Origin: Ignavibacteria bacterium
GTDB taxonomy: Bacteria; Bacteroidota; Ignavibacteria; UBA10030
Length of the DNA stretch: 64,000 nt
Direction of reading: 5' to 3'
NCBI GenBank assembly: GCA_016873805.1
Contig: VGVZ01000007.1
Coordinates: forward strand, 1-64,000
Translations under genes and position numbers: made by a program
Shown: piece by piece, positions 7 to 16,435 of the stretch
Numbering within the stretch: position 1 is the stretch's first letter
Layout: each line of letters begins with the position of its first letter
The notes under the pieces: model-generated
What the model was told of the DNA's origin: nothing
What the model saw: only the letters and a program-made list of their open reading frames with translations
Database searches by the model: none

Positions 7-103
7 GTTTCAATCCACGCGCCCGCGTGGGGCGCGACTAACAGTAACCATCACTTAGCTCCTCACTATTTGTTTCAATCCACGCGCCCGCGTGGGGCGC
101 GAC
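7..103 (-). CRISPR. Type I-C CRISPR array (two repeats, cut by window edge)
   Basis: Two identical 32-bp repeats lie at 7-38 and 72-103, separated by a 33-bp spacer (39-71). On the minus strand the repeat begins GTCGCGCCCCAC and ends GGATTGAAAC, the classic type I-C form with a short internal palindrome. The array lies directly downstream of cas2 on the same strand, so the leader-proximal repeat is 72-103 and the array continues beyond the left edge. The newest spacer is therefore 39-71. Total spacer number cannot be seen. Confidence 0.96.
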
Positions 104-265
104 TGCGGCTACTACTTCAATCGACGAATCAATGCTTTCTCAAGTATCAAACGCTTGGCCATACCAGTAGGAGGATGCAATACTCGCATGTCGTCGATTT
201 CGCCTGTTTCACGTCATTCTTCGAACGCTAACCCCCCAGCATTTCCATGTATGCTCCAATTAGCG
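104..265 (-). promoter_or_regulatory. Putative CRISPR leader
   Basis: This 162-bp stretch separates the cas2 stop codon from the first repeat, and no convincing gene is seen in it. By position it should hold the leader with the pre-crRNA promoter and the sequences recognised during spacer integration. I cannot point to a confident promoter box, so the call rests on position and on the repeat orientation, not on a motif. Confidence 0.6.
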
Positions 266-556
266 CTAAAGGATCATCGGGGCCTCAATATCTCGAATGG
301 ATCCCTTTCCATGGTGCTCGACCCTTCTCTTCCAATTTGAGCCGAGAAAATAGAAGCGAAGACTGTCTTCCTCTCTGTTGTACATTGAAAGCAGCCGGTC
401 TTTCAGGATTTCCCACTGGGCCGGATCGACATTGCATTCGAAGACTGAATTCTGCACCCGCAGCCCGAAGTCGAGACAGATCTCCGATATTTTCCTCAAT
501 CGATTTACACCGCTGGGTGTTTTCGTCGAAACATCGTAGCTCACCAAAACCATCAT
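266..556 (-). CDS. cas2: CRISPR-associated endonuclease Cas2 (type I-C)
   Basis: A 96-residue protein with the Cas2 ferredoxin-like start MMVLVSYDVS; the conserved Asp is residue 8. The segment QNSVFEC on the next strand is typical of the family. Cas2 dimers bridge two Cas1 dimers in the spacer-integration complex. The frame is open upstream to 679, but that extension overlaps cas1 and translates a palindrome (578-625), so one of the tandem ATGs at 556 or 553 is the sensible start. The length matches the family. The gene is last in the cas operon, 67 bp after cas1 and just before the array. It lacks the usual tight coupling to cas1 because the palindrome occupies the junction. Confidence 0.93.
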   Translation of the reverse strand: MMVLVSYDVSTKTPSGVNRLRKISEICLDFGLRVQNSVFECNVDPAQWEILKDRLLSMYNREEDSLRFYFLGSNWKRRVEHHGKGSIRDIEAPMIL

Positions 557-577
557 GATGTCATACTCCGCATGGCT

Positions 578-625
578 GAAGGTTTCTTTCCGCGCGTTGC
601 AGTCTTGATGAAGGAAACCTTCATC
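578..625. repeat. Palindromic element in the cas1-cas2 junction
   Basis: The plus strand reads GAAGGTTTCTTTC at 578-590 and GATGAAGGAAACCTTCATC at 607-625, inverted copies around a 16-nt loop. The right arm is itself a palindrome. The same arms recur at 13100-13143 and 13254-13299, and the core recurs at 9411-9458 and 26613-26625. The element overlaps the cas1 stop codon (624-626) and fills most of the cas1-cas2 spacer, so the mRNA could fold a hairpin between the two coding regions. Confidence 0.75.
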
Positions 626-1652
626 ACTTGAGATAGAAGGGCGGATACACAGGAATATCTCCTCGAATATGCCGCGCAAGCAATTGCGACTGAATATGGG
701 GAAGCAATCCGATTGTCATCTTTTCTCCAAGAAACGGATGAGTAATCTCCTCCTGCTTCCGCTTCTGATATGCGGTGATGACCGTCTTGCGCGCATCATC
801 AGACATCCGCACCTCACCTGACTCGCGAATCTCGAAGTCCTTCCTTGCAACCTGCTTCAAGTTTATCAGATTAAGCATGATTCGATCACCCAGGTACGGT
901 CGAAATTCTTCCATCATGTCGAGAGCAAGACTCGGCCTGCCGGGTCTCAAACGATGAAGGAATCCTACCTGAGGATCCAGGCCCACAGCTTCCAGTGCCG
1001 ATCTAACGTCGTTTGTGAGCAGCGCGTAGAGAAACGACAAGAGGGCATTGGCAGGATCAAGAGGAGGTCGGCGAGTCCGTTTTGTGAAAGCAAAGTCCTC
1101 CTTTTGGGCCGTCATGAGCGATCCAAGAACCCCGAAGTACTCGCCTGCGCATTCTCCCTCGTGCCCTCGAAGTTCATCCAATCTCTGGGCACGTTCGATA
1201 TCGGTCAATCTGCTTCCCAGAATATCTGCTGTTGCGATCAAAGCATCCGTGCACTCATCTGGGTGATTTCTTTGATGGCGCAAGAGGAGGCCGCGGCAAT
1301 TTGCTACCTTTGCCGCAATGATAGGCCGTGCAATGGCGAGAGACTGAAGCTCATTGTCGGAGATTGCGTATTGCGCCTTTCGAAGGAGAACGTTTCCCTG
1401 TTGCGCACCCTGTACACGGGCCAGGAACCTGCCGTTCTCTGAAAAGTAGCTCACACCGACGTTATTCTCCGCGCAGAAGGCCATCAACTGCGGGGTCAGA
1501 GGCTTGAACCCGAAGCAGACGATGTTCTCGATGGAGTGAATCGGCGCCTGAAAAACCTTTGACCCGTTGACTTCTACGACGAAGGTTTCGCGTTCTTTGC
1601 GGACGTAGGCATCGTCCGAGGTGATGTAGAGGGTGTTCAGGTGCTTTTTCAT
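624..1652 (-). CDS. cas1: CRISPR-associated endonuclease Cas1 (type I-C)
   Basis: A 342-residue protein, the normal length for I-C Cas1. It is the metal-dependent integrase that inserts protospacers at the leader-repeat junction together with Cas2. The sequence shows the N-terminal beta domain (about 1-85, starting KKHLNTLYITSDDAYV) and the helical catalytic domain with LRGHEGECAGEYFGVL (likely catalytic Glu165), GFLHRLRPGRPSLALD (His233, Asp245) and nearby acidic residues 248-249. Its ATG overlaps the cas4 stop by 4 bp (ATGA), so the two are translationally coupled. That fits the known Cas4-Cas1 cooperation in PAM-directed spacer processing. The 3' end is touched by a palindrome that also covers the stop codon. 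Confidence 0.96.
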   Translation of the reverse strand: MKKHLNTLYITSDDAYVRKERETFVVEVNGSKVFQAPIHSIENIVCFGFKPLTPQLMAFCAENNVGVSYFSENGRFLARVQGAQQGNVLLRKAQYAISDNELQSLAIARPIIAAKVANCRGLLLRHQRNHPDECTDALIATADILGSRLTDIERAQRLDELRGHEGECAGEYFGVLGSLMTAQKEDFAFTKRTRRPPLDPANALLSFLYALLTNDVRSALEAVGLDPQVGFLHRLRPGRPSLALDMMEEFRPYLGDRIMLNLINLKQVARKDFEIRESGEVRMSDDARKTVITAYQKRKQEEITHPFLGEKMTIGLLPHIQSQLLARHIRGDIPVYPPFYLK

Positions 1653-2332
1653 GTCAGATACAAGTCGTTCATGTACTGGTGCAGTCTGCGCTCGTTCATC
1701 CCTTTTGGTTGACAGACATCATAGAGCGAGCATCGCTTGCACTTCTGAAGGTATTGCGAAAAGGTGACTTTGTATTGTTGAATCAGTTCAGGGACCGCAG
1801 GAACGTGTTTCCTCGAAACCAGCGCGTGCACTGCGGCGATGATCGTTTCGGTTTGATTTCTCAGTTCTTCGTCCAATTCAACCCAGTGCCTCCGCCGGAT
1901 ACGGCCATAGAAAAATGCTCCTCGTGTTATCGTTGTGTTGAGCATTTCTTCCAAACAAAGTGCCTGCGCACAAAGCTGAACTTTGTCGCTGATGTCTTCT
2001 TTCGGCTGGCCGACTTTGAATTCTACGGGAACAATCCGAGGTGATTGTCCTCCCTCGTTCGGTTTGCAAAATTCAACCACATCACAACGGCCGACTATGC
2101 CGAGACGGTATGAGTGAATACGCAAGCCACGCACGCTCTTGACCGCGCCGCGCGTTTCGTAGGTGTCTGTTTCGACCTTCTCGTGAAGAATATCGCCGCG
2201 AACAGTGAAGAGATTTTCGCGCCACACATCCTCGACGTGGATCAGTGCGCACTGCCGCGGGCAAAAAACATAGTGCTGGAGGGCGCTCAGTTGGATAAAC
2301 TCTTCTTCAGAGTGCATAGGTGCTACTTTCAT
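1649..2332 (-). CDS. cas4: CRISPR-associated exonuclease Cas4
   Basis: A 227-residue RecB-family nuclease with an iron-sulfur cluster. Four cluster cysteines are visible: Cys24 (in CPRQC) and Cys198, Cys201 and Cys207 (CKRCSLYDVC). The nuclease core shows GRCDVVEF (Asp84) and VEFKVG (Glu104, Lys106). In type I-C systems Cas4 trims prespacers and selects the PAM end while bound to Cas1. The start at 2332 overlaps the stop of the upstream Bro-N gene in an ATGA arrangement, and the stop overlaps the cas1 start in the same way. An alternative ATG at 2317 would remove five residues. The coupling to a non-cas gene is unusual. Confidence 0.94.
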   Translation of the reverse strand: MKVAPMHSEEEFIQLSALQHYVFCPRQCALIHVEDVWRENLFTVRGDILHEKVETDTYETRGAVKSVRGLRIHSYRLGIVGRCDVVEFCKPNEGGQSPRIVPVEFKVGQPKEDISDKVQLCAQALCLEEMLNTTITRGAFFYGRIRRRHWVELDEELRNQTETIIAAVHALVSRKHVPAVPELIQQYKVTFSQYLQKCKRCSLYDVCQPKGMNERRLHQYMNDLYLT

Positions 2333-3162
2333 TTCCGAAGTTGTCGTACCTTTTTCTCCGTGAGGGCTTTGTAGTTCTGACTTGTTACGACCTTCCTGCC
2401 CGACTTTTTCTCAAGGTCCTTTCGTGCATTTCCCGCTACGGCGCCCCCGTCGATCGCCGCTCGCTCGTTTTCAGGAAAGCCCTGTGCATCTTTCTTCCGG
2501 GCGATTTCGGTCGTAGCCGCCTCACCCAGCATCGTGAAAATGAGCTCAAGGTCCGTCATATGGTCGCGGAGATTTTCCTGCGATTTTTTGAGGCCCTTGA
2601 GGTTCTTGTGTTCTGCCGGTGTGAGGTCGAAGGTTGCTTTGCTAATCTCCGCGGTAAGGATCGCATATTCTTTTCCTTGTTTGACGCCCCTTTTTTCCCA
2701 CTCATTTGTCAACTCGTCGCGGATGGCGATGCCGCGCATACGTTTCTCGATCCATTCATCGCTGTAGCCCTTGGCTTTGTAGATTTGGCGGATACGCGTT
2801 TGTGCAAGTTCAGGATTTTCAATTTCCTCAAGCCGCTCATTTCCGACTTGCGCCAGCCATCGTTTGAACGGTTCGGCTTTAGGAGAGGGGACAGATTGGA
2901 TGATTCTCAAGAGCCCCTGTGCATTGGCACAGCTCATCCTTTGTGTGCCTCCCGGCGTTTCTACTGCAAGGGTAGGTACAATTTGTACCCACCCTTTGGC
3001 GAGCTCCGGGTCGCGCTGTTTCATGCGTTTGACGTACTGCTTTGGATCGCTGCTATCCGTTAGAGCGGCAACGACATCCTCGACCACAAAGTATCGCTTC
3101 TGGTCCGCTTCGTTCCACACAGAGCGGATTTGCTTTTTCTCAAAGAGTTTGATGTTTGCCAC
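2329..3162 (-). CDS. Bro-N domain (phage antirepressor-like) protein inside the cas operon
   Basis: A 277-residue protein. Its N-terminal ~110 residues match the Bro-N fold: an opening segment with KKQIRSVWNEADQKRYFVVE, then DVVAALTDSSDPKQYVKRMK and the signature SPKAEPFKRWLAQVGNERL. The C-terminal half (RKELTDEW-type helices, then GLKKSQENLRDHMTDLEL) resembles the longer chromosomal Bro-N proteins of Bacteroidota. Bro-N is a DNA-binding domain known from phage antirepressors and baculovirus BRO proteins. Translation starts at a GTG at 3162 with a strong AAAGGAGT site just upstream. The gene lies between cas7 and cas4, with a 197-bp gap on the cas7 side and a 4-bp overlap with cas4. It is not a known Cas component. 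A regulatory role or a phage-derived insertion are both possible. Confidence 0.85.
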   Translation of the reverse strand: MANIKLFEKKQIRSVWNEADQKRYFVVEDVVAALTDSSDPKQYVKRMKQRDPELAKGWVQIVPTLAVETPGGTQRMSCANAQGLLRIIQSVPSPKAEPFKRWLAQVGNERLEEIENPELAQTRIRQIYKAKGYSDEWIEKRMRGIAIRDELTNEWEKRGVKQGKEYAILTAEISKATFDLTPAEHKNLKGLKKSQENLRDHMTDLELIFTMLGEAATTEIARKKDAQGFPENERAAIDGGAVAGNARKDLEKKSGRKVVTSQNYKALTEKKVRQLRK

Positions 3163-3291
3163 GGTTACTCCTTTTAAGCGTTTGTGTATTGGCGGAGTTC
3201 ATACCTGCAACAAGTGCTGCATACTCCCGGAGAGTGCTTTTCGCTATCGCTGCCATCGTTCGGTCATGTGCATTCCATTGTTTGGCGATAA

Positions 3292-3314
3292 TTCTCTAAC
3301 GACCTGTTAGAGAA
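3292..3314. promoter_or_regulatory. Perfect 9-bp palindrome between cas7 and the Bro-N gene
   Basis: TTCTCTAAC (3292-3300) and GTTAGAGAA (3306-3314) form a perfect inverted repeat around a 5-nt loop. It lies 130 bp upstream of the Bro-N GTG, in the 197-bp gap that follows cas7. A second small hairpin, CCGTCG-AGCA-CGACGG, lies at 3331-3346. Neither is followed by a T-run on the minus strand, so an operator is at least as likely as a terminator. The role is inferred from position only. Confidence 0.4.
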
Positions 3315-3359
3315 ATAACCACGTTACTCGCCGTCGAGCACGACGGGGTGTTTTGACCA

Positions 3360-4310
3360 TCAAAGTTTCTCTATTACCGTGACTCCTTTTGGCATACTTG
3401 ATTGCGCAGGAACGGTGACTTCGTAATCACTCCAAGCTCGAGGAGGGTGATTCTCACCCTTTTCCTCATTCTTTCTTCTCTCCACTTTCACCCTTTCAAA
3501 CAATTCTCCAGCCCGTGCGTTACCAAGATGGCTATCGTGCTTAAACACGATGAGTTTGCGTGGATTCATTTCGCCTCGTGCAGCCGAGCGATCGTGTTCA
3601 AAGGCATTGACCAACGCTTCCCAGAGCAAGTTTAGATCATCTTCTGAGAAACGAGTCTTGGCAGCATCGACCGCAGAGATAAACCCGTGCATTTGATAGA
3701 GACCGTAAGGGACAGTTGATTTGCGGCCGAATGTCGACGGAAACTCCATCTTCTCTTTAAGATCCTCAAATTTTTTCTCATCAGTTATTACACAACGGGT
3801 AATCTGATGATCGGCTTGATAAATCCTGTCGATTGAACGACCGAAGGTAAACTGAACAGGACCACGTACCGTTCCAGCTCCTTTCGTCTTCTTAGTTTTA
3901 GCTTTACCAGCCTTCTTTTCTCCCTCACCTTCTTCTCCACCTTCGGCAGCAGTTTCTGTTCCTGTGGAGAGAACAGCACCAAAAGTGCGAATGTCATAGT
4001 ACTTCTCTAAGAGGTTTTTCTTCTTTTCCTGTAGCGAATCCCCAGACTTCTCTATCTCCTTGTTGAGGTATGGGTACTCTTCGTCGACGCTGCGTTGACG
4101 AATGAATACACCGTACCCTGAGACATCTTTCTTCACGGCTTGCACGTAGTTTCTGATCTTCCGCTTGATGCAAACGTCGGTGACCAGTCCCTGTTGACTT
4201 TCCGCATCAACACGTGGGAGGTTATCCTGATCGGGATCGCCGTTGGGGTTTCCGTCTTTCACGTCAAACAAGAAGACGAAATCGTATCGATTTTTGATTG
4301 AATTAGGCAT
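3360..4310 (-). CDS. cas7: Type I-C Cascade backbone protein Cas7 (Csd2)
   Basis: A 316-residue Csd2/Csh2 family RAMP protein. The opening segment YDFVFLFDVKDGNPNGDPD is the hallmark N-terminus of the family; Cas7 polymerises along the crRNA spacer to form the Cascade backbone. GPVQFTFGRSIDRI in the middle and the C-terminal ending are also typical. A Lys/Glu/Gly-rich low-complexity loop precedes that central motif (about residues 130-150 of this start). The frame is open to 4382, but the ATG at 4310 has an AAAGGAGTAAT site immediately upstream, which fixes the start. It begins 25 nt after the cas8c/cas11c stop. Confidence 0.95.
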   Translation of the reverse strand: MPNSIKNRYDFVFLFDVKDGNPNGDPDQDNLPRVDAESQQGLVTDVCIKRKIRNYVQAVKKDVSGYGVFIRQRSVDEEYPYLNKEIEKSGDSLQEKKKNLLEKYYDIRTFGAVLSTGTETAAEGGEEGEGEKKAGKAKTKKTKGAGTVRGPVQFTFGRSIDRIYQADHQITRCVITDEKKFEDLKEKMEFPSTFGRKSTVPYGLYQMHGFISAVDAAKTRFSEDDLNLLWEALVNAFEHDRSAARGEMNPRKLIVFKHDSHLGNARAGELFERVKVERRKNEEKGENHPPRAWSDYEVTVPAQSSMPKGVTVIEKL

Positions 4311-4335
4311 ACGTATTACTCCTTTCTGTTTTGAG

Positions 4336-4701
4336 TTATTTGCTGAATTCTTTTTGTCGTTGATGATAATAACCAATGGCAAAACTGGCCTGATCTTCCA
4401 ATGTGAAGACAGCAGGAAATCTCGTGCCTCCGACTTTAGCCATCAGTTCTTGCAAACTTTTGTCGAGATTGACAAAGAGACCGTAGTTTTCGCCCCTTAT
4501 CTTCGACAAATGGTGTTGTGCAAGCTTACACAATCTCGCAAATGCTGTCGAGGGTGTAGTCGAAGCTGATGAGAAGAAACGTTGTCGGATGGGTGCGTTT
4601 ATATTGCTTCCCATAGCGAAGTACTGGATTGACTCCAGCACAGCAAAGATTTGCCCACAGACGTAGGCAACGTTTTGATCTGAACCATTTTGGTCAGGCA
4701 T
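4336..4701 (-). CDS. cas11c: Cas11c small subunit from an internal start within cas8c
   Basis: An in-frame ATG at 4701 inside cas8c is preceded by AAGAAAGGAGT with ideal spacing, as strong as the sites of the cas7 and Bro-N genes. The product would be 121 residues (starting MPDQNGSDQN) and shares its stop with cas8c. In type I-C systems Cas11c is known to be translated from an internal site in cas8c, giving small-subunit copies that stabilise the Cascade belly. The position, frame and strength of this site match that arrangement closely. The helical C-terminal sequence, with LARLCKLAQHHLSKI-like segments, also fits a small subunit. Direct proof would need protein data. Confidence 0.82.
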   Translation of the reverse strand: MPDQNGSDQNVAYVCGQIFAVLESIQYFAMGSNINAPIRQRFFSSASTTPSTAFARLCKLAQHHLSKIRGENYGLFVNLDKSLQELMAKVGGTRFPAVFTLEDQASFAIGYYHQRQKEFSK

Positions 4702-6150
4702 AGATTGACTCCTTTCTTGAAAGTTATTTTTACGTTTGAGATACAATTGTAAAAGAGCAATTCGTTCTGGAAGTTTTACTTCCCAAGGCGATCTTTTCTT
4801 ACCTTCTTCAGGCTTTGCAGATTGTTCCGCGCGAATGCGATTTAGTACCGCGTGGATCATCCAGAGTGGTGGTGAATACCCCATAACAGCACATTTCCAT
4901 AGGACGGCTCCAATCCTCCCGTACTGAACTTCATTCGTGCTTTTGCTCTTCACGGAACGGACCAATTCCCAAAAACGTGGATAATGCTTCACCAGCTTTT
5001 CCTGATCTGAATCGTACCGCATAATTTCGATGTCAGTGAACCATTGCGCCAAATTAGCCCGAAGGTTTTCGAGACTGGTCTCGATCCAATCCCGCACGGC
5101 GATACGGGCAGCGGCGCCACTGAGTGTAATTGAGTAGAACTTCTCCGATTTAAGTTTCTGTGCTCGTGAAGCTTCTCCAGAATAGACAGAATCAAACAGT
5201 TTCTTAATCGCCTCTTCGTTGGGTTGATCCAAGAGAGCAAGATCGGAGGGGTCAAGTTTTTCTTGCAACCAGAAAACAAACTGAGTATCATCCGAAATAT
5301 CTTTCCTATTCTTATAATCTGGTTTCATCTTTCCTTTCTTCCCAGTTGGAGCCCAAGAACGGGGAGCCAACAGCCAATTCATTGCATCTACGTATGCCTT
5401 CGCACAATGAGTACAGATGAGTGAATTATCGTTCCCTTCCAAGCCGTACGAAGAGAAAGCCTTTCCTTCATAGGAGACGAGGTAGTTGCCAAGGGGATTT
5501 CGTGGAAGAATTCCGCTGATTGTTCCGTGAGTCGACAAGTTGCGAACTCGATAATCAGACCTTCCGCAAACAGAACACGACTCGCTTGAGTCGCCCTTTA
5601 GTTTCTTTTCGCTTTCTTCATATCGCTTCTTGATCTCTTTTATCAACTCTGGTGATGAATGAACCACTGTATCCTTACCGCCTTTTTGGCGAATGAGAAA
5701 AGAAAAGTTAGTTCCTGCCTTTAACTGTTTTGATTGAACTTTCGACTCAAATGCCTTGCGTGCTGCGTTCAATCCCTTCTCTTTGTTTTTCTCATAAAAG
5801 CTTATGACTTCTTTGATTCCTGGCACGTTATCGTACTCTTTTAGCTTCGTCAGATATGCATCCAAACATTTGTTTGAACGCTTGCCTCTCGGTAGACCAA
5901 GAACATATTTCGCATTGTCCAAGATCAGGCGAGCCAACACGTTACTCGTCCTTCCCTTGTTCTCCGTTCTTACCAAGTCTTCTGCTACAGCTCCTTTTTT
6001 CTCTGTGGGAATAATCTCAAGAAACCGACCGTCGGGAGCGATGCAAATGAAGGCATCCAGCCTTTCCTCGCACAGAGCGTCGTCGACAAGTGACTGGTCT
6101 TTTTTGTCTCTACGCACCTTCTGCGCAAGCGCAACAAGTTCCTGAATCAT
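4336..6150 (-). CDS. cas8c: Type I-C Cascade large subunit Cas8c (Csd1)
   Basis: A 604-residue Csd1-family protein of normal length. It recognises the PAM and anchors the crRNA 5' handle with Cas5. A zinc-ribbon-like pair of CxxC motifs is visible at about Cys192/Cys195 (CSVC) and Cys246/Cys249 (CTHC). The ATG at 6150 follows GGAGGAG at good spacing and overlaps the cas5 stop as ATGA. A GTG two codons upstream (6156) is also open but less well placed. The last 121 codons are also expected to be translated separately as Cas11c. The cas7 start follows after 25 nt. Confidence 0.94.
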   Translation of the reverse strand: MIQELVALAQKVRRDKKDQSLVDDALCEERLDAFICIAPDGRFLEIIPTEKKGAVAEDLVRTENKGRTSNVLARLILDNAKYVLGLPRGKRSNKCLDAYLTKLKEYDNVPGIKEVISFYEKNKEKGLNAARKAFESKVQSKQLKAGTNFSFLIRQKGGKDTVVHSSPELIKEIKKRYEESEKKLKGDSSESCSVCGRSDYRVRNLSTHGTISGILPRNPLGNYLVSYEGKAFSSYGLEGNDNSLICTHCAKAYVDAMNWLLAPRSWAPTGKKGKMKPDYKNRKDISDDTQFVFWLQEKLDPSDLALLDQPNEEAIKKLFDSVYSGEASRAQKLKSEKFYSITLSGAAARIAVRDWIETSLENLRANLAQWFTDIEIMRYDSDQEKLVKHYPRFWELVRSVKSKSTNEVQYGRIGAVLWKCAVMGYSPPLWMIHAVLNRIRAEQSAKPEEGKKRSPWEVKLPERIALLQLYLKRKNNFQERSQSMPDQNGSDQNVAYVCGQIFAVLESIQYFAMGSNINAPIRQRFFSSASTTPSTAFARLCKLAQHHLSKIRGENYGLFVNLDKSLQELMAKVGGTRFPAVFTLEDQASFAIGYYHQRQKEFSK

Positions 6151-6884
6151 TGGCACTCCTCCTCCGACGCTTCCTCGGCAAGATTGAATTCGTTAATGAG
6201 TTGCTTTGGATATTCGGCTATATGTCCTGGTAGATGATTGCTGGAAAGTATTTGCTCGTACTCTTTGGCACATTCCAACACACCTTGACGTACCGAGACA
6301 TCATAGAAGAACTTTGGCATCGGAACGCCTTCCTCATCGTACCACATATCGAGAAACATACTGCCAATGGGAATATCCTCGGCGATCGGCTCTTCGTACC
6401 CATCTGGCAAGGAAAACTCAGCGGCGAATTCCCTCGTCCCTAAATATGGTCTCCGCCAGCACTGACCAGAGCGTGCCCGTCGATTAAACATCTCTACATA
6501 TTTTCTTGTCGGATTTTTTACTGGTGATTTTGCTCCATGCACTGCCGCTTCAATGATGTAGGCAACATCTTTGAGGACAATGCTATTCCGCTGTGCACGA
6601 TACTTTGGTTTTCCTCGCACGTCTACTTCATCAACGAAGATAGGGTCGTCTCCTTGTTTTGAGTTTATCTCGTTACGCTTGAGAGAATAGAACTTCACGG
6701 GCTTTAGCACGAGAATGCGCTGCACGTGCCAAGTGAATTCTGGTTTCCAGAGAATGCAGTCTAAAGCGCCTCGTGCAGCAGAAGGCGTCATACAGGGATA
6801 CGTCATCCGCTCCACTTTTAAGTCAGGACGGGTGAAGCATGCAAACTCTCCCCACACTTTGAGTTGAACGGTGTTGTTATTCAT
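6147..6884 (-). CDS. cas5: Cas5c (Cas5d), crRNA-processing RAMP protein of type I-C
   Basis: A 245-residue protein with the Cas5d start (VQLKVWGEFACFTRPDLKVE, then TYPCMTPSAARGAL) and the C-terminal region MFNRRARSGQCWRRPYLGTREF. Type I-C lacks Cas6, and Cas5c cuts the pre-crRNA and caps the 5' handle. The ATG at 6884 follows AAAGGAAAAATT, and the gene begins 21 nt after cas3. By memory of the Bacillus halodurans enzyme (Tyr46, Lys116, His117), the equivalents here look like Leu45 (ILW in place of IYW) and Lys128-Tyr129 (RKYVEMF in place of KH). The catalytic set may therefore differ, but this alignment is by eye. Confidence 0.94.
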   Translation of the reverse strand: MNNNTVQLKVWGEFACFTRPDLKVERMTYPCMTPSAARGALDCILWKPEFTWHVQRILVLKPVKFYSLKRNEINSKQGDDPIFVDEVDVRGKPKYRAQRNSIVLKDVAYIIEAAVHGAKSPVKNPTRKYVEMFNRRARSGQCWRRPYLGTREFAAEFSLPDGYEEPIAEDIPIGSMFLDMWYDEEGVPMPKFFYDVSVRQGVLECAKEYEQILSSNHLPGHIAEYPKQLINEFNLAEEASEEECQ

Positions 6885-6905
6885 AATTTTTCCTTTCATT
6901 GATGG

Positions 6906-9074: not shown

Positions 9075-9194
9075 CTATACGATTGGGTTGGCAAACTTCC
9101 CCATCATCTCCGCCACTTCTTCCAGATGCGTCCAGAGCGGTTGCGGCTCTTTATCTTTCTTTCGCAGGTGTGCGATCAGGTTGGCGTTCACCAC
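9075..9194 (-). CDS. 39-codon ORF resembling a truncated Cas3 HD N-terminus
   Basis: This short ORF starts at GTG 9194, overlapping the ImmA stop by 7 bp, and ends at TAG 9077-9075, 10 nt before the cas3 GTG. Its product includes NLIAHLRKKDKEPQPLW and HLEEVAEMMGKFAN. The spacing of AH, LW, HLEEVAE and FA is what one sees at the start of Cas3 HD domains, and the true Cas3 downstream opens with a parallel series (YAHSENP, HLLETAQRAESFA). It may be the stump of an older cas3 or cas3'' gene, left when the neighbouring genes were exchanged. The resemblance is by eye over about 30 residues. Confidence 0.45.
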   Translation of the reverse strand: MVNANLIAHLRKKDKEPQPLWTHLEEVAEMMGKFANPIV

Positions 9195-9937
9195 AGCCCC
9201 TCCTCCACCATTCCCAATCTCAACTCCTCGACCCGTATCGCCGCCGCCGAACGGCTCACACCGAATCGCCGTATCAACGCAAGCGTAAGCTCCTCTTGAC
9301 TTGCGCCCTGGTTCTCATGCTCAATCCGCCTGCATTCCTCCATCGGCATCAGCAACTCGGCCGCAAAGCCGTTTGCTTTGATCTCTCTGAATTTCTCTTT
9401 GTGCCAAGTGAGAAGGTTACCTTCATCCCTGCTTAACCTCTGCCGAAGGTAACCTTCTGCTCCGAAGATGTCACTCTTCGTGCACCGAGCAGAGACCACC
9501 TTGTCGGACTCTTCCTGCGAAAAGAGAGGGATCGTTCTCGTGTTCTCGTACTTCAGGTAGACCGGTCGGTAATAGTCGTTGATGAAATGACCAAGCTCAT
9601 GGGCAAGTGAGAACTTCTGCCGCTCTTCCGTGTCGGTTTCTTCGATGAAGATAATCCCGCCGCCGCGAGAGGCGTAGAGGAATCCTGCGACATCGGAATA
9701 GCGGTCGAGCGCAGATTGCTCAAAGGGCAGATTGAGCCGCTGTAACACTTTTGCAACCTTTTCCGTGGTGAGGTTCGCGATGGGTTGCATGGCGATGCTG
9801 AATGTTTCGCCAATCATCTTGCTTAATGTGAAGTGCGAAATCGGATACGCGACCTGATTGTAGCCGTTCAGACGGGCATGATTGAAAAACCATCTCACAA
9901 CGTCCTCAGTGATGCGATGCTTTCGCTCGTGCTTCAT
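9188..9937 (-). CDS. ImmA/IrrE family metallopeptidase with an in-frame palindrome
   Basis: A 249-residue protein. FSLAHELGHFIN supplies the HExxH zinc site (His113, Glu114, His117), and NGFAAELLMP (about 190-198) supplies the downstream Glu, the standard ImmA/IrrE layout. Family members cleave repressors (ImmA of ICEBs1, IrrE/PprI cleaving DdrO) to release stress or mobile-element genes. Residues 161-175 (EGYLRQRLSRDEGNL) are encoded by a DNA palindrome and fall in the linker between the two motifs, so the insertion probably leaves the fold intact. The start overlaps the upstream gene's stop by 4 bp, making a sigma factor - HTH-like - peptidase operon that runs toward cas3. Confidence 0.88.
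   Translation of the reverse strand: MKHERKHRITEDVVRWFFNHARLNGYNQVAYPISHFTLSKMIGETFSIAMQPIANLTTEKVAKVLQRLNLPFEQSALDRYSDVAGFLYASRGGGIIFIEETDTEERQKFSLAHELGHFINDYYRPVYLKYENTRTIPLFSQEESDKVVSARCTKSDIFGAEGYLRQRLSRDEGNLLTWHKEKFREIKANGFAAELLMPMEECRRIEHENQGASQEELTLALIRRFGVSRSAAAIRVEELRLGMVEEGLW
9411..9458. repeat. In-frame palindromic element inside the ImmA/IrrE gene
   Basis: GAAGGTTACCTTC (9412-9424) and GAAGGTAACCTTC (9445-9457) are inverted copies of each other, and each is also self-complementary. Together they encode EGYLRQRLSRDEGNL on the minus strand, closely parallel to EGFLHPRTSQDEANL encoded by the two elements in the transposase gene. The conservation of both nucleotide arms and reading frame indicates one element family that has entered coding sequence more than once. 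Confidence 0.72.
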
Positions 9938-10560
9938 TTCTTCTTCTTTCCCGCTTGCCCGCCTGCCTGACCGGAGCGGCGAGCTGCCGCGCGCATGGAC
10001 CCCGATTGGCCAGGGCTATTCTGTAATTCCCAGAAGTGCAGTCCGTTGAACAACCACTGAGTTAGTACCTGCAGTGCATGGCCGGAGAGATCATACTTCT
10101 TGCCGAGAGCTTCCGACATTTCACGAACGGCTTTGCTTGTGAGTTGTTCGGTTTCGGTCAAAAGGGAATGGATAACCGACTCTGATACTCCAAGCTTTTC
10201 CCCAGCTTGCTTCTCGTTCCATGCGTTGACGAGCAAGACTTCACCCATCGCATTACCGACGGTGGGCATCGTACGATACAGAGCGGGCGTTTCCATCACC
10301 GTTTGCCTCGCCAGGGGGTCGCTTTGGTGAAGGGGAGACAGCTCTTGTCCGGCGTCCTTTTCGTTTGGGCGAGCTGCGGTTTTCCTCTCACGGATTGCAC
10401 GAAGGAGAATCCCCTCTATTTCAGTTGTCAGATTCTTGGACGGCTGTATCAGCTCGGAGTGAGCGAGCAAGTATTCGATGTCTTCGTTAGAAAGCTCGAA
10501 ATCTAACTCACCCTCAAGAACTGCCTTCTTGAGAATGGCCTGTAGTTGGTTCAGATTCAT
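9934..10560 (-). CDS. Unrecognised protein with an HTH-like central segment
   Basis: A 208-residue protein of no family I recognise. A central segment, NEKQAGEKLGVSESVIHSLL (about 115-134), has the pattern of a helix-turn-helix, so DNA binding or protein-protein recruitment is possible. The ends are likely disordered: the C-terminus is Gly/Ala/Gln-rich and finishes in four lysines, and its codons include a TGCCTGCC-type repeat also present near 21.5 kb. The gene overlaps both neighbours by 4 bp (sigma factor upstream, ImmA/IrrE peptidase downstream), so the three proteins are probably made together. By analogy with other ImmA pairs it is a candidate substrate of the peptidase, perhaps an anti-sigma or repressor. 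That function is inference only. Confidence 0.7.
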   Translation of the reverse strand: MNLNQLQAILKKAVLEGELDFELSNEDIEYLLAHSELIQPSKNLTTEIEGILLRAIRERKTAARPNEKDAGQELSPLHQSDPLARQTVMETPALYRTMPTVGNAMGEVLLVNAWNEKQAGEKLGVSESVIHSLLTETEQLTSKAVREMSEALGKKYDLSGHALQVLTQWLFNGLHFWELQNSPGQSGSMRAAARRSGQAGGQAGKKKK

Positions 10561-11141
10561 CGTTTGTCACCCAAAGGAAATTCTTTTCCATACATCATTT
10601 TCAGTCTCCTATAGGCCCTGGATTTTCTTTGCCTATAGGCTTGTTCACCGATACCGAAGAGCTCCATGTATGATTCTTTTGAAACCCCTTGAATGTCGAG
10701 TTGGATGAGAATCCGATCTTCTTGTGAAAGTAACGGGAAGATCGTTCTAACACGTTTCACAAATTCCGAGTCTTCAGGAGGATCATCTATGACAGATGCA
10801 TCCTCGAAAACGTGAACTGGCGTGTCGCTGCCAAGCGATTGCATTTGCGCGGGTTGTAGCAGTCCGCGCCGATACCTGTCGATACGAATGTTGAGGGCAA
10901 TTCCTGTCACAAACGTTATGAACTTTGCTCTGCCGGGCTCATACGCTCGGGCCGCTTTATCGAGCGCTTCCTTGGCAATATCCTCGCCCGTAACCTCATC
11001 CACTCCGAATTTCTTCAGCACACCGATCACTCGCGGGATAAAGTCGTCGTTGAGTACCCGGGCAATCCTTTTGATCTCCTGCGGGTCCTGCAAATAACCC
11101 GACAGTAGCGCCCAGATCCTTTGATTGTGGTCTTCTATCAT
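10557..11141 (-). CDS. ECF-type RNA polymerase sigma factor
   Basis: A 194-residue protein with the two-domain layout of ECF sigma factors. Region 2 is seen in RAKFITFVTGIALNIRIDRY (about 72-91, -10 recognition), and region 4 in the C-terminal HTH SYMELFGIGEQAYRQRKSRA (about 157-176). No sigma 1.1 or region 3 is present. The ATG at 11141 has no Shine-Dalgarno of its own and lies 1 nt after a 17-codon leader ORF that does have one, so translation may depend on re-initiation. The gene overlaps the HTH-like gene downstream by 4 bp. A target promoter set cannot be named. The downstream cas operon is an obvious candidate, but no matching promoter motif was identified. Confidence 0.8.
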   Translation of the reverse strand: MIEDHNQRIWALLSGYLQDPQEIKRIARVLNDDFIPRVIGVLKKFGVDEVTGEDIAKEALDKAARAYEPGRAKFITFVTGIALNIRIDRYRRGLLQPAQMQSLGSDTPVHVFEDASVIDDPPEDSEFVKRVRTIFPLLSQEDRILIQLDIQGVSKESYMELFGIGEQAYRQRKSRAYRRLKMMYGKEFPLGDKR

Positions 11142-11142
11142 G

Positions 11143-11196
11143 TTATACGCAGGGGTGTGACAGCGTCTGAATTTCGTTCTCTTTTATGCTGTCCAC
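11143..11196 (-). CDS. Putative 17-residue leader peptide ahead of the sigma factor
   Basis: A GTG at 11196 follows GGGAGGAGGTGGATCA, the strongest ribosome-binding site in this stretch, and opens an ORF of 17 codons (MDSIKENEIQTLSHPCV) that stops at TAA 11145-11143, one nucleotide before the sigma-factor ATG. The sigma ATG has no purine-rich site of its own. The arrangement suggests that ribosomes finishing the leader re-initiate on the sigma gene. No similarity to a known leader peptide is apparent. Confidence 0.45.
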   Translation of the reverse strand: MDSIKENEIQTLSHPCV

Positions 11197-11272: not shown

Positions 11273-13054
11273 TCACCCCACACCCTTCTCCAGCATCTTC
11301 ATGAAGTTCCGTTTCCGTTTGTGGGTGGTCTTGAGAGACTCAAGATAGCGATCCCATTCTTCCATCCGTCCCAATCGCTTCATGAGGAGGCGCACTTTCT
11401 TGATCAACGAAACACCTTCACGATATGCCTCGTTATGTTTTTGCTCGACGGTCGGCTTCACGAAGGTTTGATACACGGCGAGGGCATCTTGGGGGAAATC
11501 CTCTTCTCGTAAATGGGCAAGCTTCAACCACAGGTCCTTCGCGCATCCCCCTTGTTGCGCTTCCTGCCATGCCTGCGCAATATCTTGTTCCCACAGAAAG
11601 ATTCGAACCAGCTCCGAACAATCGATCGCGTGTGCAAACCACTTGCTCTTTGCCTTGGTCTTCTGCCCTGTGATATCCTTCCGGATGCACGCGAGAGCTT
11701 TTTCTCTCCACTCCCGCCACGCATCCGCGCCGCCGGCCCGATTGGCATGACTCTTCAACAATTTGTAGGATTCCAATTGAGGGTCTTGAAGAAAGATCTT
11801 CCAGACGAGGTCCATTGCATCGTCAAACCGTTTACGTTGTTGATATTCTTGAGCAAGAAATTCGTGGAGCCGCGTGTCATCGTGCTCTGGAAATGCCTTC
11901 ACTCCTTTCTCAGCCCACTCCAACGTTTCTTCCTCCTTCCTTGCCTTCTTGTAGATTTGTGCAATTTCAAGATAATGGTATGGAAGTGAGAGGTTCTTGG
12001 ATTTTATTGCAACGAGCTGTTCGACATCACGGCTCTGCGTAGCGAGGGTTTCCATGATATGTGTTATCCGGAATCGGGTTCCCTTGTATTCTTCCATCTC
12101 TTTTCCGGGACCGAGAACCGGGACGCGTGCCCATTCTTTCTCCGCGAGCGAACGATATAGCTCCATTCCGTTCGTTCCGAAGATACGTGCGTATCTTTGA
12201 GCGGCTCCTGCGAATACGCCCCACTCACTATTCACCTCCCAATGAAACAACTTTTTCACCAGTGCCTCCGGATCAGGCTGAGCTTTTGTGCACGCCTGAA
12301 AATGAAGTTCCTGAACTTTCTTCAAAATCCCACTCATCAGCCCATCAGAATCGTCCACCATTTCCATCTGCTTCTCAAGCCGGCGAAGGAAGTATTCCAC
12401 CAGCCCGATCACAGCCTCAGCCTGTCCGGATTTCAAGAGATCGTACAGGGAGGCGATCACGTCGTCGATTCCTGATGCATATTCGTGCATCGACTTGTAG
12501 TCGACGAACCCATCCCAACTCACCGCCTCATCAATCGAATGCTCGAATGATGCTTTGTCTCTCCTCGCATCGGCTCCTGCCGCTTTCATCCGGAGCTTCT
12601 CGAGCAACCGGTTGTCAGACTTGACATGATCCATCAATAGAGCAACGAGCGGATCCTTGTTCTGTGTCAACAGGAACCTCTCAATATCGCTTGAGTTCAA
12701 AACGCGCTGTTTCAATCTCGTGTGCTTGCCTGACATGCCTGATCCTTCCAGCTCATCGCAGGCCGCAAGAGATGCCGCGACGCAGTGCTTGCAGAAAGCT
12801 TCCTCTTGCTCGAAGAACGGGCAGGTGCAGGAAAAAGCAAGATTACTATTATCCTCCCACAGCTCAACGTGGTAGATCTGCGACCCATGTACCCTGGCAC
12901 GGATATGGTCAGCTTCAATTACGAGGTTTTTGACCCGACCTTCTTCGAAGTAATCTTCACCCCGTGCGTACGACAGCTGACCTGCATGTCGCAGGATTCG
13001 CTGGTGGGAGAGAAGTCTTGCGATGTCTTTGGTCTTCTTTTTAGTCATTGTCAT
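11273..13054 (-). CDS. SWIM zinc-finger protein
   Basis: A 593-residue protein with a SWIM domain near the N-terminus: FSCTCPFFEQ followed by EAFCKHCVA (about residues 73-93) gives the CxC...CxH zinc ligands. The remainder is a long, mostly helical, TPR-like region with no enzyme motif. SWIM domains bind DNA or proteins and occur in bacterial genes near helicases and in accessory islands. The ATG at 13054 overlaps the transposase stop by 4 bp (ATGA), with AAGGACC upstream; a second ATG follows two codons later. A 131-bp gap separates its stop from the sigma-factor start. Its substrate or pathway is unknown. Confidence 0.82.
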   Translation of the reverse strand: MTMTKKKTKDIARLLSHQRILRHAGQLSYARGEDYFEEGRVKNLVIEADHIRARVHGSQIYHVELWEDNSNLAFSCTCPFFEQEEAFCKHCVAASLAACDELEGSGMSGKHTRLKQRVLNSSDIERFLLTQNKDPLVALLMDHVKSDNRLLEKLRMKAAGADARRDKASFEHSIDEAVSWDGFVDYKSMHEYASGIDDVIASLYDLLKSGQAEAVIGLVEYFLRRLEKQMEMVDDSDGLMSGILKKVQELHFQACTKAQPDPEALVKKLFHWEVNSEWGVFAGAAQRYARIFGTNGMELYRSLAEKEWARVPVLGPGKEMEEYKGTRFRITHIMETLATQSRDVEQLVAIKSKNLSLPYHYLEIAQIYKKARKEEETLEWAEKGVKAFPEHDDTRLHEFLAQEYQQRKRFDDAMDLVWKIFLQDPQLESYKLLKSHANRAGGADAWREWREKALACIRKDITGQKTKAKSKWFAHAIDCSELVRIFLWEQDIAQAWQEAQQGGCAKDLWLKLAHLREEDFPQDALAVYQTFVKPTVEQKHNEAYREGVSLIKKVRLLMKRLGRMEEWDRYLESLKTTHKRKRNFMKMLEKGVG

Positions 13055-13731
13055 CGGTCCTTCCGGTTAGCTGCCACCGGAGGAGCAGCCGGCATAGATA
13101 GGTTTGCTTCATCTTGGCTTGTTCGCGGATGAAGGAAACCTTCTGACGGGAGGAATCCCTCCGCATGGGACGTTAATATTTTTCGAAGCTCCCTTTGCAT
13201 CTGTTCGTTCTTTATAACATCACGCACATATTGCACGTAACCGTTCCATAGCTGAAGGTTTGCTTCATCTTGGCTTGTTCGTGGATGAAGGAAACCTTCT
13301 GCAACTTCTGCGAAGTTTGAATATCTCCAATCCTCAGGCATTGTCACCAATCCTGCGTGGACCGGGTTGAGATGGACATAGCATGTCACGTACCACAAGG
13401 TCCCTTCGCTTACGGGTTTGTATCGGAATGGCCCCTGAAAGAGATGGCCCACCCGTTTGTACTTGAGGTTATGTCGTTTTGCTGTAGATGTCGCCAGCGC
13501 ACCCATCATTCTTGACACGCTGCCATCCGCATGCTGTCTGACGACCAAATGATAGTGGTTTGGCATGAGTGTGTATGCGGCTACCTCAACAAGGTAACGT
13601 TTCGCGAGGACCTTCATTTTCTCCACAAACGTTTTGTAGTCAGAGGCATCGCCGAAGATTCGTCTCCGATCGTTCCCTCGGTTGTAGACGTGGTAGTAAA
13701 GATCATCATCGATGCGTACGTGGCGGTTCAT
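13051..13731 (-). CDS. REP-associated tyrosine transposase (RAYT, IS200-like) with two in-frame palindromes
   Basis: A 226-residue Y1 transposase of the TnpA_REP type: YYHVYNRGNDRRRIF at the N-terminus, the HUH motif in MPNHYHLVV (His59, His61), GHLFQGPFRYKPV, and the catalytic-Tyr region YVTCYVHLNPVHAGL (Tyr118 likely). RAYTs cut and move short palindromic REP sequences. Two copies of EGFLHPRTSQDEANL (residues 145-159 and 197-211) are encoded by palindromes. ATG 13731 follows AGGGGCACC; the frame is open to 14022, but that extension runs through the broken DUF1186-like gene and is not coding. The stop overlaps the SWIM gene start by 4 bp. Confidence 0.85.
   Translation of the reverse strand: MNRHVRIDDDLYYHVYNRGNDRRRIFGDASDYKTFVEKMKVLAKRYLVEVAAYTLMPNHYHLVVRQHADGSVSRMMGALATSTAKRHNLKYKRVGHLFQGPFRYKPVSEGTLWYVTCYVHLNPVHAGLVTMPEDWRYSNFAEVAEGFLHPRTSQDEANLQLWNGYVQYVRDVIKNEQMQRELRKILTSHAEGFLPSEGFLHPRTSQDEANLSMPAAPPVAANRKDR
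13100..13143. repeat. REP-like palindrome, copy near the 3' end of the RAYT gene
   Basis: AGGTTTGCTTCATC (13100-13113) pairs with GATGAAGGAAACCT (13128-13141) with one mismatch, around the loop TTGGCTTGTTCGCG. The sequence differs from the copy at 13254-13299 at only one loop position within the shared core, and it encodes EGFLHPRTSQDEANL in the RAYT frame. Confidence 0.75.
13254..13299. repeat. REP-like palindrome, internal copy in the RAYT gene
   Basis: GAAGGTTTGCTTCATC (13254-13269) and GATGAAGGAAACCTTC (13284-13299) form a 16-bp stem with one mismatch and a 14-nt loop. It lies 154 bp from the nearly identical copy at 13100-13143. Both are in the same orientation and reading frame, so this looks like element duplication by insertion rather than divergence of a domain repeat. 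Confidence 0.78.
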
Positions 13732-13740
13732 GGTGCCCCT

Positions 13741-13814
13741 GAGAAAGATCACTTGTTCTGAGCTATCGCTTTGCTGAATGTGGCCGTCTCTGAGAAAGGT
13801 CACCTTCTTCTGAA
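13741..13814. repeat. Paired imperfect repeats upstream of the RAYT start
   Basis: CTGAGAAAGATCACTTGTTCTGA (about 13739-13761) and CTGAGAAAGGTCACCTTCTTCTGA (about 13790-13813) are imperfect direct repeats. The second contains the near-palindrome AGAAAGGTCACCTTCT, whose core resembles the GAAGGTTACCTTC core of the other elements. They flank the 5' side of the RAYT gene as the palindromes flank its 3' side, the usual RAYT/REP geometry. Confidence 0.5.
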
Positions 13815-13837
13815 TATGCGACTGCCGCGGGACGGGA

Positions 13838-14269
13838 TTTTGGGTGAAGGAGGTGCATGGCCACAATTCCGGCAACGCCCGCATGGCGAGCATACAGATC
13901 CATGGAGGTGTTCGTGACGAATTCCCAGAATTTTTCCAAATAGTTGTTGCCCACCCTCGCGAAAGGGATCTACAAGTGTTCCGTAAGCGAATCCGAGTCC
14001 AGTCGCCACGGGTCGTCCTCACCCATACTCAGACACTTTATTAGGTCAGGCACTATCGAAGAATCTCCAATTTCGGTCAACAGAAACGCTGCCTCGCAGT
14101 CGGTGCCATCGACAGGCTGTTCTGGAACACCGCCGAGCTTCACCTTTTGTGACACAGCCTTCCTGTGGTAGGGTTGAAAGAACTCCCGATCCGCAAGAAC
14201 AGCATCGATCTCCTTGTCGGTGAGATACCATCGTGATCGCAACGCTTCGCAGAGTTGTTCTCTGTTCAA
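13838..14269 (-). pseudogene. Frameshifted DUF1186/HEAT-like gene
   Basis: The 5' part reads NREQLCEALRSRWYLTDKE through AAFLLTEIGDSSIVPDLIKC and LSMGEDDPWRLDSDSLTEHL, then stops at TAG about 13970. The continuation in another frame is GNNYLEKFWEFVTNTSMDLY followed by ARHAGVAGIVAMHLLHPK. Joined, the two give the DUF1186-like pattern of an acidic helical-repeat protein, so a frameshift near 13965 has broken the gene. Similarity ends at about 13838, where the repeats upstream of the RAYT begin, suggesting that the 3' end was lost with that insertion. The likely start is TTG 14269, which follows AAGGAGGTAGT at good spacing; an ATG at 14311 would overlap the upstream gene. The family call is by eye. 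Confidence 0.6.
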
Positions 14270-14827: not shown

Positions 14828-16435
14828 TCACTTCATCCTTCTCAGTCGCTTGTTCACAGCTTCAAGGTCAAACCACTCAGGGTCGAAGTCGGCGGCCCAT
14901 TCCAGAAGCCCGCGCTGTTCAATTGTGGCAGGATTTTGGATCGCTTCGAGCAACTCGGTATATCCCCAGATGCCGCCGCAATCCTCGGGCGGACAGGCAC
15001 GCATACCCTCGATACATCGGGGGTTGCGCTCTCCCTCCTGCACATCAAGAATCTTCTCCACCTTCAGATCGTGCCGCCAGTCGTCGCCAAAGTCGTAGAT
15101 GTACATGAACTTGCTTCCACGCTTGGGCGCGACTTGCTTCAGCGTTACCTTCTTGTCGCTTATGATCTCGCTTCCGAATTCGGGGTCGGGGCGGCCGAAG
15201 GACTGACCCGCAACGTTGAACTCGTGCAGATGGACCTCCTCCCACCCCATGACCGCTTGCAGAACACGATGGAGCTTCGCAAGCGTGTAATCCGCCGGCA
15301 CAAGAAAACGGCGCCAGATCTGCGGATCTGAACCGCGAAGCGTTACCTTCATTTGATAGATTGTAGACCCAGCCGGAACGGCACGCGTCTTTCGAGGAGT
15401 TGCTTCTTCCTGCAATAGCTGCCCGAGCAACCCCGCTTTGAGGGATTCTATTGTTTGGAGATGTTCCCGGTGCAGGATCTTGATCCCAAGTGCCTTTCCA
15501 AGAGACATGAGCGAAGTCGCTGTTTCCTTCTCCATCACAAAGAGGGTCTCAGGCAGGAAACCATGCCTTTCTACTGAAGCACAGATTGTGTCTGCCAATG
15601 CCTGTGCGATGGAAGTCTCCGGTGGCATAAGATCGAATGCGAATGCGAAACCGGAAACCTGCTGGCAGACGCATGCTATCCGCGTAAAATAAGGCCGATC
15701 CCGGTCGTGAATCGTTGAAGGTAAAAAGAACACGCCCGCTTCCCACGGAGAATCGGGCTTTGGCTTGTTCGCGAGCATCCCGTTGATCCGCGCAAGGTCG
15801 AGCACGGGCAGACGAAATCTGGGGGGCAAAGGTTGCGGCCACGGTTCCCAGCGTGAAGTGAACGACGAGTGCGCGTCCGTCGCGGGTGAATACACAAGGC
15901 ATTGGTTCTCTCGGGACGACTCGTCAATCTCCCTCCGCACAACCTTTTCGAAGTGATGACAGATCGCTTCGAGAGCGAGCTTCAGGAACGTTGCCTCGGC
16001 TTCGGTCAGAAACCACGGAGCAAAGCCGGGGCTCAAGCTGCGGAACTGCGGCCACGCATGGCGTCCCTTGAAACTGAGTCCCAATTGACGAATAACATCG
16101 AGGTCCTCGGGGTGCAGATTCCTTCTCGAGTCTAGCTCCAATTTCAAGCAGTTCTGGGTGGCGTAGAATTCGTCGGCCTGAAAATCAGGCTCCTCGTCGA
16201 CCAGCTTCCGGTATGTCTCGAATCCCTCTACGCCCCGGTACAAACAAAGACCGAAAAGTGTTCCTCCACTCCCCATCACGACGCCGTATCCGGTTTCGCC
16301 GGTTGAGGGATCCCGCACACCGATGATATTGAGGTCATCCAGCATTTCCCACGGCCTAAGTCGCCGGAATTTGAGAGTGGCAGAATAAAGATCGCTCCAA
16401 ACAGGAAGAGGGACTGCAGGTATGGTTGGTTTCAT
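14828..16435 (-). CDS. pRiA4b ORF-3 family protein with a DUF7309-like N-terminal domain
   Basis: A 535-residue two-domain protein. The C-terminal ~180 residues match the plasmid pRiA4b ORF-3 family: IYQMKVTLRGSDPQIWRRFL, LHRVLQAVMGWEEVHLHEF, then FMYIYDFGDDWRHDLKVEKI, and CPPEDCGGIWGYTELLEAI. The N-terminal ~330 residues (PVWSDLYSATLKFRRLRPWE, GYGVVMGSGGTLFGLCLYRG) resemble the DUF6930/DUF7309 domains that precede it in longer homologues. The biochemical role of the family is unknown; it is frequent on plasmids and islands. The ATG at 16435 is preferred because the upstream extension to 16570 looks non-coding. It is the first gene of the minus-strand island. Confidence 0.82.
   Translation of the reverse strand: MKPTIPAVPLPVWSDLYSATLKFRRLRPWEMLDDLNIIGVRDPSTGETGYGVVMGSGGTLFGLCLYRGVEGFETYRKLVDEEPDFQADEFYATQNCLKLELDSRRNLHPEDLDVIRQLGLSFKGRHAWPQFRSLSPGFAPWFLTEAEATFLKLALEAICHHFEKVVRREIDESSRENQCLVYSPATDAHSSFTSRWEPWPQPLPPRFRLPVLDLARINGMLANKPKPDSPWEAGVFFLPSTIHDRDRPYFTRIACVCQQVSGFAFAFDLMPPETSIAQALADTICASVERHGFLPETLFVMEKETATSLMSLGKALGIKILHREHLQTIESLKAGLLGQLLQEEATPRKTRAVPAGSTIYQMKVTLRGSDPQIWRRFLVPADYTLAKLHRVLQAVMGWEEVHLHEFNVAGQSFGRPDPEFGSEIISDKKVTLKQVAPKRGSKFMYIYDFGDDWRHDLKVEKILDVQEGERNPRCIEGMRACPPEDCGGIWGYTELLEAIQNPATIEQRGLLEWAADFDPEWFDLEAVNKRLRRMK

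Follow-up and report, generated by a model that had tools for sequence, protein, structure and literature searches.

A sigma factor, an HTH protein and an ImmA/IrrE peptidase ahead of type I cas operons in Ignavibacteria: a candidate protease-relieved controller

Gene organization of the cassette and the operon behind it

The first 64,000 nucleotides of contig VGVZ01000007.1 from an Ignavibacteria bacterium (assembly GCA_016873805.1; Bacteroidota, UBA10030), here called the window, carry on their minus strand three overlapping genes followed by a complete type I-C cas operon. The three genes, which we refer to as the trio, encode in this order a sigma factor, a protein with a helix-turn-helix (HTH) domain and an ImmA/IrrE peptidase. 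Both junctions are 4-nt ATGA overlaps, and the three products comprise 194, 208 and 249 residues; an earlier note on this DNA, made from the sequence alone, had placed and joined the genes in the same way. The operon behind consists of cas3, cas5c, cas8c, cas7, a Bro-N gene, cas4, cas1 and cas2, then CRISPR repeats (Table 1).

The peptidase matches Pfam Peptidase_M78 (1.3e-18) and the PADLOC model capP (1.5e-21). The motif HELGH occupies residues 113-117 and is present in 4/4 aligned copies; the closest solved structure, found with the family profile, is CapP (PDB 7t5t, 2.8e-5). The first gene encodes a protein with sigma region 2 (Pfam Sigma70_r2, PF04542, E=3.2e-7; 30.5 bits against a curated cut-off of 24) that also matches a PHROG sigma factor (5.8e-8). 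The extracytoplasmic function (ECF) model of NCBIfam, TIGR02937 (sigma70-ECF), covers residues 36-181 (4.9e-8) with 32.8 bits, under its cut-off of 42.9.

For the middle protein, an AlphaFold model shows a helical N-terminal part, a low-confidence linker (residues 59-96) and an XRE-type HTH domain at residues ~97-182, where the predicted local distance difference test (pLDDT) score is about 80-90; a Lys-rich, basic tail follows. No Pfam match over the cut-off was obtained for the window copy (HTH_3 E=0.089), and the matches of two homologues (P0012, HTH_3 5.7e-4; P0008, HTH_19 7.2e-4) are also below the Pfam cut-offs. The resemblance of the HTH domain to known folds is weak throughout: the Z value is 5.1 for P22 c2, 4.3 for the N-domain of CapH (7t5u) and 4.2 for ImmR (7t8i). 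A Foldseek search with the middle protein gave no match at E<=0.001. The zinc anti-sigma motif HxxxCxxC is absent from the protein, which has no cysteine. Searches for further middle proteins gave 46 pattern stretches in genome contigs, none of them confirmed, and nothing in plasmids. The family assignments of the earlier note are thus upheld for all three genes: the metallopeptidase by family match and motif, the ECF-like sigma factor by region 2, and the HTH-like segment with its Lys-rich tail by the homologues and the structure model, the signal in the window copy itself being weak.

The trio had also been described as lying directly upstream of cas3 and reading into it with no obvious terminator. 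The adjacency holds, but the 122-nt gap is not empty: it contains a stub of 38 codons, missed earlier, which corresponds to the N-terminus of Cas3. A scan of the minus strand from 9188 to 9065 detected no terminator-like site, and RNA folding between the peptidase gene and cas3 gave nothing beyond chance (z -0.29). A promoter scan of the minus strand between 8800 and 11400 found one sigma70-like site versus 1.9 expected; the familiar Bacteroidota-type promoter consensus TTTG...TANNTTTG has no site in the window.

Table 1. Positions of the trio, the cas operon and associated elements in the window
Feature	Position	Strand	Evidence or remark
Candidate promoter/operator element	11143..11163	-	directly 5' of sigma start; also 5' of the sigma gene in L012
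Sigma-70-family (ECF-like) gene, first of trio, 194 aa	10557..11141	-	Sigma70_r2, TIGR02937, PHROG
Middle (HTH) protein, 208 aa	9934..10560	-	AlphaFold model, homologues
ImmA/IrrE (Peptidase_M78) zinc peptidase, CapP-like, 249 aa	9188..9937	-	Pfam, PADLOC, PDB
Cas3 N-terminal stub, 38 codons	9191..9075	-	start overlaps peptidase stop as GTGA
cas3, intact, 719 aa	6906..9065	-	TIGR01587 8e-41, TIGR01596 2.3e-26
cas5c	6147..6899	-	TIGR01876 9.5e-34
cas8c/csd1	4336..6156	-	TIGR01863 3.8e-92
cas7/csd2	3360..4382	-	TIGR02589 6.8e-86
Bro-N domain protein between cas7 and cas4	2329..3162	-	PF02498 2.1e-12
cas4	1649..2332	-	PF01930 1.3e-20
cas1	624..1652	-	PF01867 2.4e-102
cas2	266..679	-	PF09827 1.8e-23; listed start codon uncertain
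Two CRISPR repeats	7..104		array running off contig start
IS200-type transposase	13051-14022	-	Y1_Tnp
GAAGGWNNCCTTC elements	9412-9457, 13131-13143, 13287-13299, 610-622, 26613-26625		palindromic

Recurrence at type I cas operons and the Cas3 stubs

With profile and protein searches, the close trio or its peptidase subfamily was detected in 4/98 genomes of the order. These are the window genome (G000), an Ignavibacteria metagenome-assembled genome (G402, locus L011), a UBA10030 genome (G406, L008/L012) and G247 (L009). Gene order and 4-nt overlaps are identical in the window, L009 and L011; the L008/L012 copy stops at a contig end within the peptidase. Sigma homologues occupy the same place in the trio at positions 8926-9474 of L011 and 946-1479 of L009, and homologues of the middle protein were found in L009, L011 and L012. 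Across the close copies the peptidases are 49-62% identical (window versus L011, 62%; window versus L009, 49%), and the middle and sigma proteins 23-43%. The sigma gene is retained within the overlapping operon in all four copies, with the frame of one broken at an N; this copy, in L012, was at one time taken for a pseudogene, a reading that was dropped because the break falls on an unresolved base of the assembly. A fifth match, in genome G461, is distant (60.7 bits). Samples of 391 genomes of the class and 395 of the phylum contained no further close trio, and plasmid and phage searches with the peptidase returned distant relatives only.

Wherever the downstream context is readable (3/3 trios), cas genes adjoin the trio, and they belong to three subtypes. 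The L009 trio is flanked by two Cas6 genes, the second of which is followed by Cas3b, Cas8b and Cas7b, with Cas4, Cas1b and Cas2 at a greater distance; this operon is of type I-B (Cas6b, Cas3b, Cas8b, Cas7b, Cas1b). In L011 the trio is followed by Cas3e and Cas8e of a type I-E operon. At all three loci, the type I-C operon of the window included, the trio is on the cas strand and about 70-180 nt from the next full cas gene.

In order to assess these numbers, Cas3-type loci of the same order were compared. A Cas3 core over the cut-off occurs in 17/98 genomes (20 genes). The trio is present in three of these 17 genomes, directly ahead of cas in each case, versus one of the 81 others (Fisher p=0.016, small numbers). 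None of 20 other Cas3-type neighbourhoods contains trio members; this control comprises 17 other Cas3 genes over the cut-off and three below it, and at least 2 kb upstream of cas3 was included in 15 of the 20, the remaining five being shortened by contig ends. Among viral-contig loci with an ImmA peptidase, 0/37 have a matching sigma gene, as judged with a profile that recovered each of the seven known members when left out in turn. The sole sigma match outside trios, in L010, lies about 7 kb from the peptidase. Two other ImmA genes in the window genome have XRE-like partners (identified by eye) and no sigma gene.

These counts bear on the notion of the HTH/ImmA pair as a selfish maintenance or toxin-antitoxin-like element, whose position next to cas reflects defence-island clustering only. 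ImmA/HTH pairs are described as toxin-antitoxin systems in PMC10538038, the trio is patchy with four occurrences in 98 genomes, and repetitive extragenic palindromic (REP)-like elements and an IS200-type transposase are close by. We nevertheless regard this explanation as clearly unlikely: strand and spacing relative to cas agree in the three readable cases, the other Cas3-type loci display no loose proximity (0/20), and a toxin-antitoxin pair has no need of an additional sigma factor.

The stub behind the peptidase matches Cas3c in PADLOC (1e-5). An ungapped alignment with residues 1-37 of a full-length type I-C Cas3 from G461 (L072) scores 78; none of 200 shuffled sequences reached this value and none exceeded 39. 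The stub is 47-50% identical to full Cas3 genes from two genomes of the order, and the intact cas3 that follows it is of clearly different sequence. In L011, a 40-codon open reading frame between peptidase and cas3 likewise resembles a Cas3 N-terminus: the local score versus Cas3e is 43, which 0/200 shuffles reached, and PADLOC gave no match for it. The two loci carry Cas3 of different lineages. Their stubs differ in sequence, both stop short of the HD motif, and each is most similar to a Cas3 of the subtype to which the following intact gene belongs. L009 has no stub.

The occurrence of a stub right behind the peptidase in two loci suggests that the trio was attached to an earlier cas3. On the simplest reading, the stubs are remnants of earlier cas operons, which were already coupled to the trio and were swapped for diverged ones. 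Alternatively, the stub could be a separate mini-Cas3 peptide or a leader reading frame, translationally coupled to the trio and tuning Cas3 or cas translation. Two loci with stubs of 38 and 40 codons, different in sequence and both ending ahead of the HD motif, would fit such a function. It is very improbable, however, as L009 lacks a stub and a remnant of operon exchange suffices to account for the resemblance of each stub to a Cas3 N-terminus.

Several observations concern the surroundings of the trio. Upstream of it, at 11273-13054 (minus strand), the window encodes a SWIM zinc-finger/DUF6880 protein (PADLOC candidate PDC-S62, 4.3e-59). Such a gene also precedes the L008 trio (1972-3573, minus strand), so that these two loci look orthologous; none is found ahead of the L011 trio. 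A PRiA4_ORF3/DUF6930 protein is encoded a few kb upstream of the window trio (14828-16570), and in G461 the gene preceding the Cas3 with the best match to the stub (L072 3601-4134) resembles it by eye. The palindromic GAAGGWNNCCTTC elements give 12 strand-matches at 6 sites versus 0.08 expected, near the IS200-type transposase; one pair (9412-9457) sits in frame within the peptidase gene, and comparable peptides that look like insertions (EGFL/EGNL) can be seen in L009 cas genes.

Comparison with known controllers and proposed mode of action

The most closely comparable arrangement is that of CapH and CapP. According to PMC13373217, this pair controls neighbouring immune operons (BREX, Pycsar, CBASS, DISARM, Bub), and CapP is reported to sense single-stranded DNA and to cut the repressor CapH. 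The trio shares with it an HTH protein and a CapP-like M78 peptidase directly upstream of an immune operon. It differs in three respects: it is led by an extra sigma gene, whereas CapH and CapP are two genes without one; its HTH is located at residues ~97-182 of 208, after a helical N-terminal part, whereas that of CapH is N-terminal; and it fronts type I CRISPR-Cas, which is not among the operons named above for the pair.

Type III-E CRISPR loci likewise combine a protease with a small partner protein and an ECF-like sigma factor; there, cutting of Csx30 is reported to release the sigma factor CASP-sigma from inhibition (PMC10028731). In contrast to the Csx29/Csx30/CASP-sigma set, the trio possesses an M78 metallopeptidase instead of a CHAT protease, precedes a type I operon with no Cas7-11 effector, and its protease has no visible tie to recognition guided by CRISPR RNA. 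In PprI/DdrO, a metallopeptidase turns genes on by cleaving an XRE-type repressor (PMC10904395, PMC7907104), and PprI is reported to sense single-stranded DNA and to cut DdrO (PMC10904395). As in PprI(IrrE)/DdrO and ImmA/ImmR, a peptidase stands in the trio beside an XRE-type partner, which it may cleave. In ImmA/ImmR, too, a metallopeptidase that cuts an XRE-type repressor switches genes on. PprI/DdrO and ImmA/ImmR serve a global radiation response or the control of mobile elements, and no sigma gene is known in the module. By analogy, the trio would join repressor cleavage as by CapP and PprI with the sigma relief of type III-E, combining a CapP-like peptidase and a CapH-like partner with a sigma factor. 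In literature searches limited to open-licence PMC papers, none was seen to describe a sigma-HTH-ImmA trio located at type I cas operons, and the main text of the review PMC10013973 mentions neither IrrE nor ImmA.

Trios of similar composition also occur at other operons. In two plasmids, from Candidatus Chlorohelix and from Aulosira (L050/L052), a sigma gene, a gene for a small protein and an M78 peptidase gene precede SbcD/SMC and HerA-like genes; in the Bacteroidota genome G371 (L095), such a trio precedes a HerA-like gene and a gene that is NurA-like by eye. Support for the NurA assignment is weak: a single copy matches PF09376, at 0.012 and under the cut-off. These distant trios, which span Bacteroidota, Chloroflexota and Cyanobacteriota, share with ours a sigma protein (region 2/4 in the distant trios), a small protein and an M78 peptidase in the same order at an operon head; they differ in that the operon behind is not CRISPR, and no relationship of the L050/L052 middle protein to that of the window could be demonstrated. 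Homology of the middle proteins of the Chlorohelix and Aulosira trios to that of the window was considered and is unsupported (hhalign probability 0.4 and 1.3); all of them end in an AAR-plus-basic tail.

Further loci are recorded here in their own right. At L095 3306-9434, a methylase gene, a sigma-like gene, a gene for 145 residues and the M78 peptidase gene are followed by HerA-like genes. In G461, a peptidase of the trio group lies ahead of a Bil-like operon (L057 5393-8918; BilC 1e-13, BilD 1.2e-7); its two upstream neighbours have no family assignment, and one of them shows a weak match to a CARF model. On two Nostoc plasmids (L064 and L065, 5364-7023 each), a sigma gene is accompanied by a homologue of the Aulosira middle protein that lacks annotation and by another gene with a sigma factor annotation; no peptidase is listed there.

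Judging from sequence, the trio is a real and recurrent module that probably regulates the cas operon. It is best read as a variant of a CapH-CapP-type controller with an added sigma factor, attached to CRISPR. More specifically, we give an even chance to the proposal that it is a dedicated, protease-relieved sigma controller of the operon behind it. The sigma factor would be produced together with the HTH protein, and the latter would keep the system off by acting as an anti-sigma partner or by repressing the promoter of the cassette itself. Upon stress, probably signalled by single-stranded DNA that arises from damage or phage replication, the CapP/PprI-like peptidase would become active and cut the HTH protein, perhaps within the flexible linker that connects the helical N-terminus with the HTH domain. 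Transcription driven by the freed sigma factor would start at the head of the cassette and continue through the peptidase gene into cas, with positive feedback. Some Bro-N proteins, e.g. DinD, are damage-inducible; the Bro-N gene of the operon fits this model and proves nothing.

A simpler possibility is that the HTH protein acts as a plain DNA-binding repressor of CapH type, cleavage of which lifts repression from a housekeeping promoter; the sigma gene would then be a repressed gene or a spare activator and not the switch. The XRE fold with its weak likeness to domains of CapH, ImmR and P22 c2 agrees with this, and so do HTH-ImmA pairs that are free of sigma, such as L096, where the pair precedes a methylase-like gene (by eye) and other genes. 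On the other side, the sigma gene is retained in 4/4 close copies, the one with the broken frame included, and in the three distant trios; moreover, the HTH of the middle protein is in the C-terminal half and not N-terminal as in 7t5u. We therefore consider a plain repressor rather unlikely.

The dedicated sigma controller has to be weighed against a number of findings. Most Cas3 loci of the order are free of the trio, and the readable loci are just three, from one order; the fourth trio genome, G406, is 69% complete, its contig ends in the peptidase, and no Cas3 core over the cut-off was found in it. Pfam did not recognise a region-4 family in the sigma protein, whose structure model is poor (pLDDT 46.5) and unfit for structure search, and the sigma proteins of the window and L011 are just 23% identical. 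The candidate promoter/operator element is present in a single copy in the window, hence none precedes cas3, and a shared promoter could not be demonstrated. Finally, as comparable trios front HerA/NurA-type operons, the type of module is probably not specific for CRISPR. The earlier note had pictured a compact switch at the head of the cas operon. Of this, a recurring module with a CapP-like peptidase at or within the heads of I-C, I-B and I-E operons stands, and the close trio is cas-adjacent in all readable cases. The counter-case that the note itself named, a trio occurring widely away from CRISPR loci, holds in part: the distant trios precede non-CRISPR operons, so that the type of module is not exclusive to CRISPR.

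Meaning for the regulation of type I CRISPR-Cas

A wider proposal, which we put forward tentatively and hold less firmly than that of a controller of the operon behind the trio, is that protease-gated sigma cassettes form a separate, portable class of immune-operon controllers. At least three subtypes of type I CRISPR-Cas would employ this class, and diverged members of it would serve HerA/NurA-type systems in Bacteroidota, Chloroflexota and Cyanobacteriota. Through it, transcription of adaptive immunity would be linked to a signal of DNA damage; the Cas3 stubs suggest that such a cassette may persist when one cas operon behind it is replaced by another.

Two things would be new: the sigma factor added to a CapH-CapP-type controller, and the placement of such a controller at type I CRISPR-Cas operons of several subtypes. 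How cells time the expression of type I CRISPR-Cas is an open question, to which the trio may be relevant; the answers named in the literature consulted are quorum sensing and host regulators. If the proposal is true, a controller that travels with cas, with a damage-type protease and a sigma factor of its own, would connect adaptive immunity to damage sensing of the innate kind, in a compact module that can be transferred to a laboratory strain and tested with a reporter. In addition, the Cas3 stubs may serve to trace how cas operons were exchanged in the past while the controller in front of them stayed fixed.

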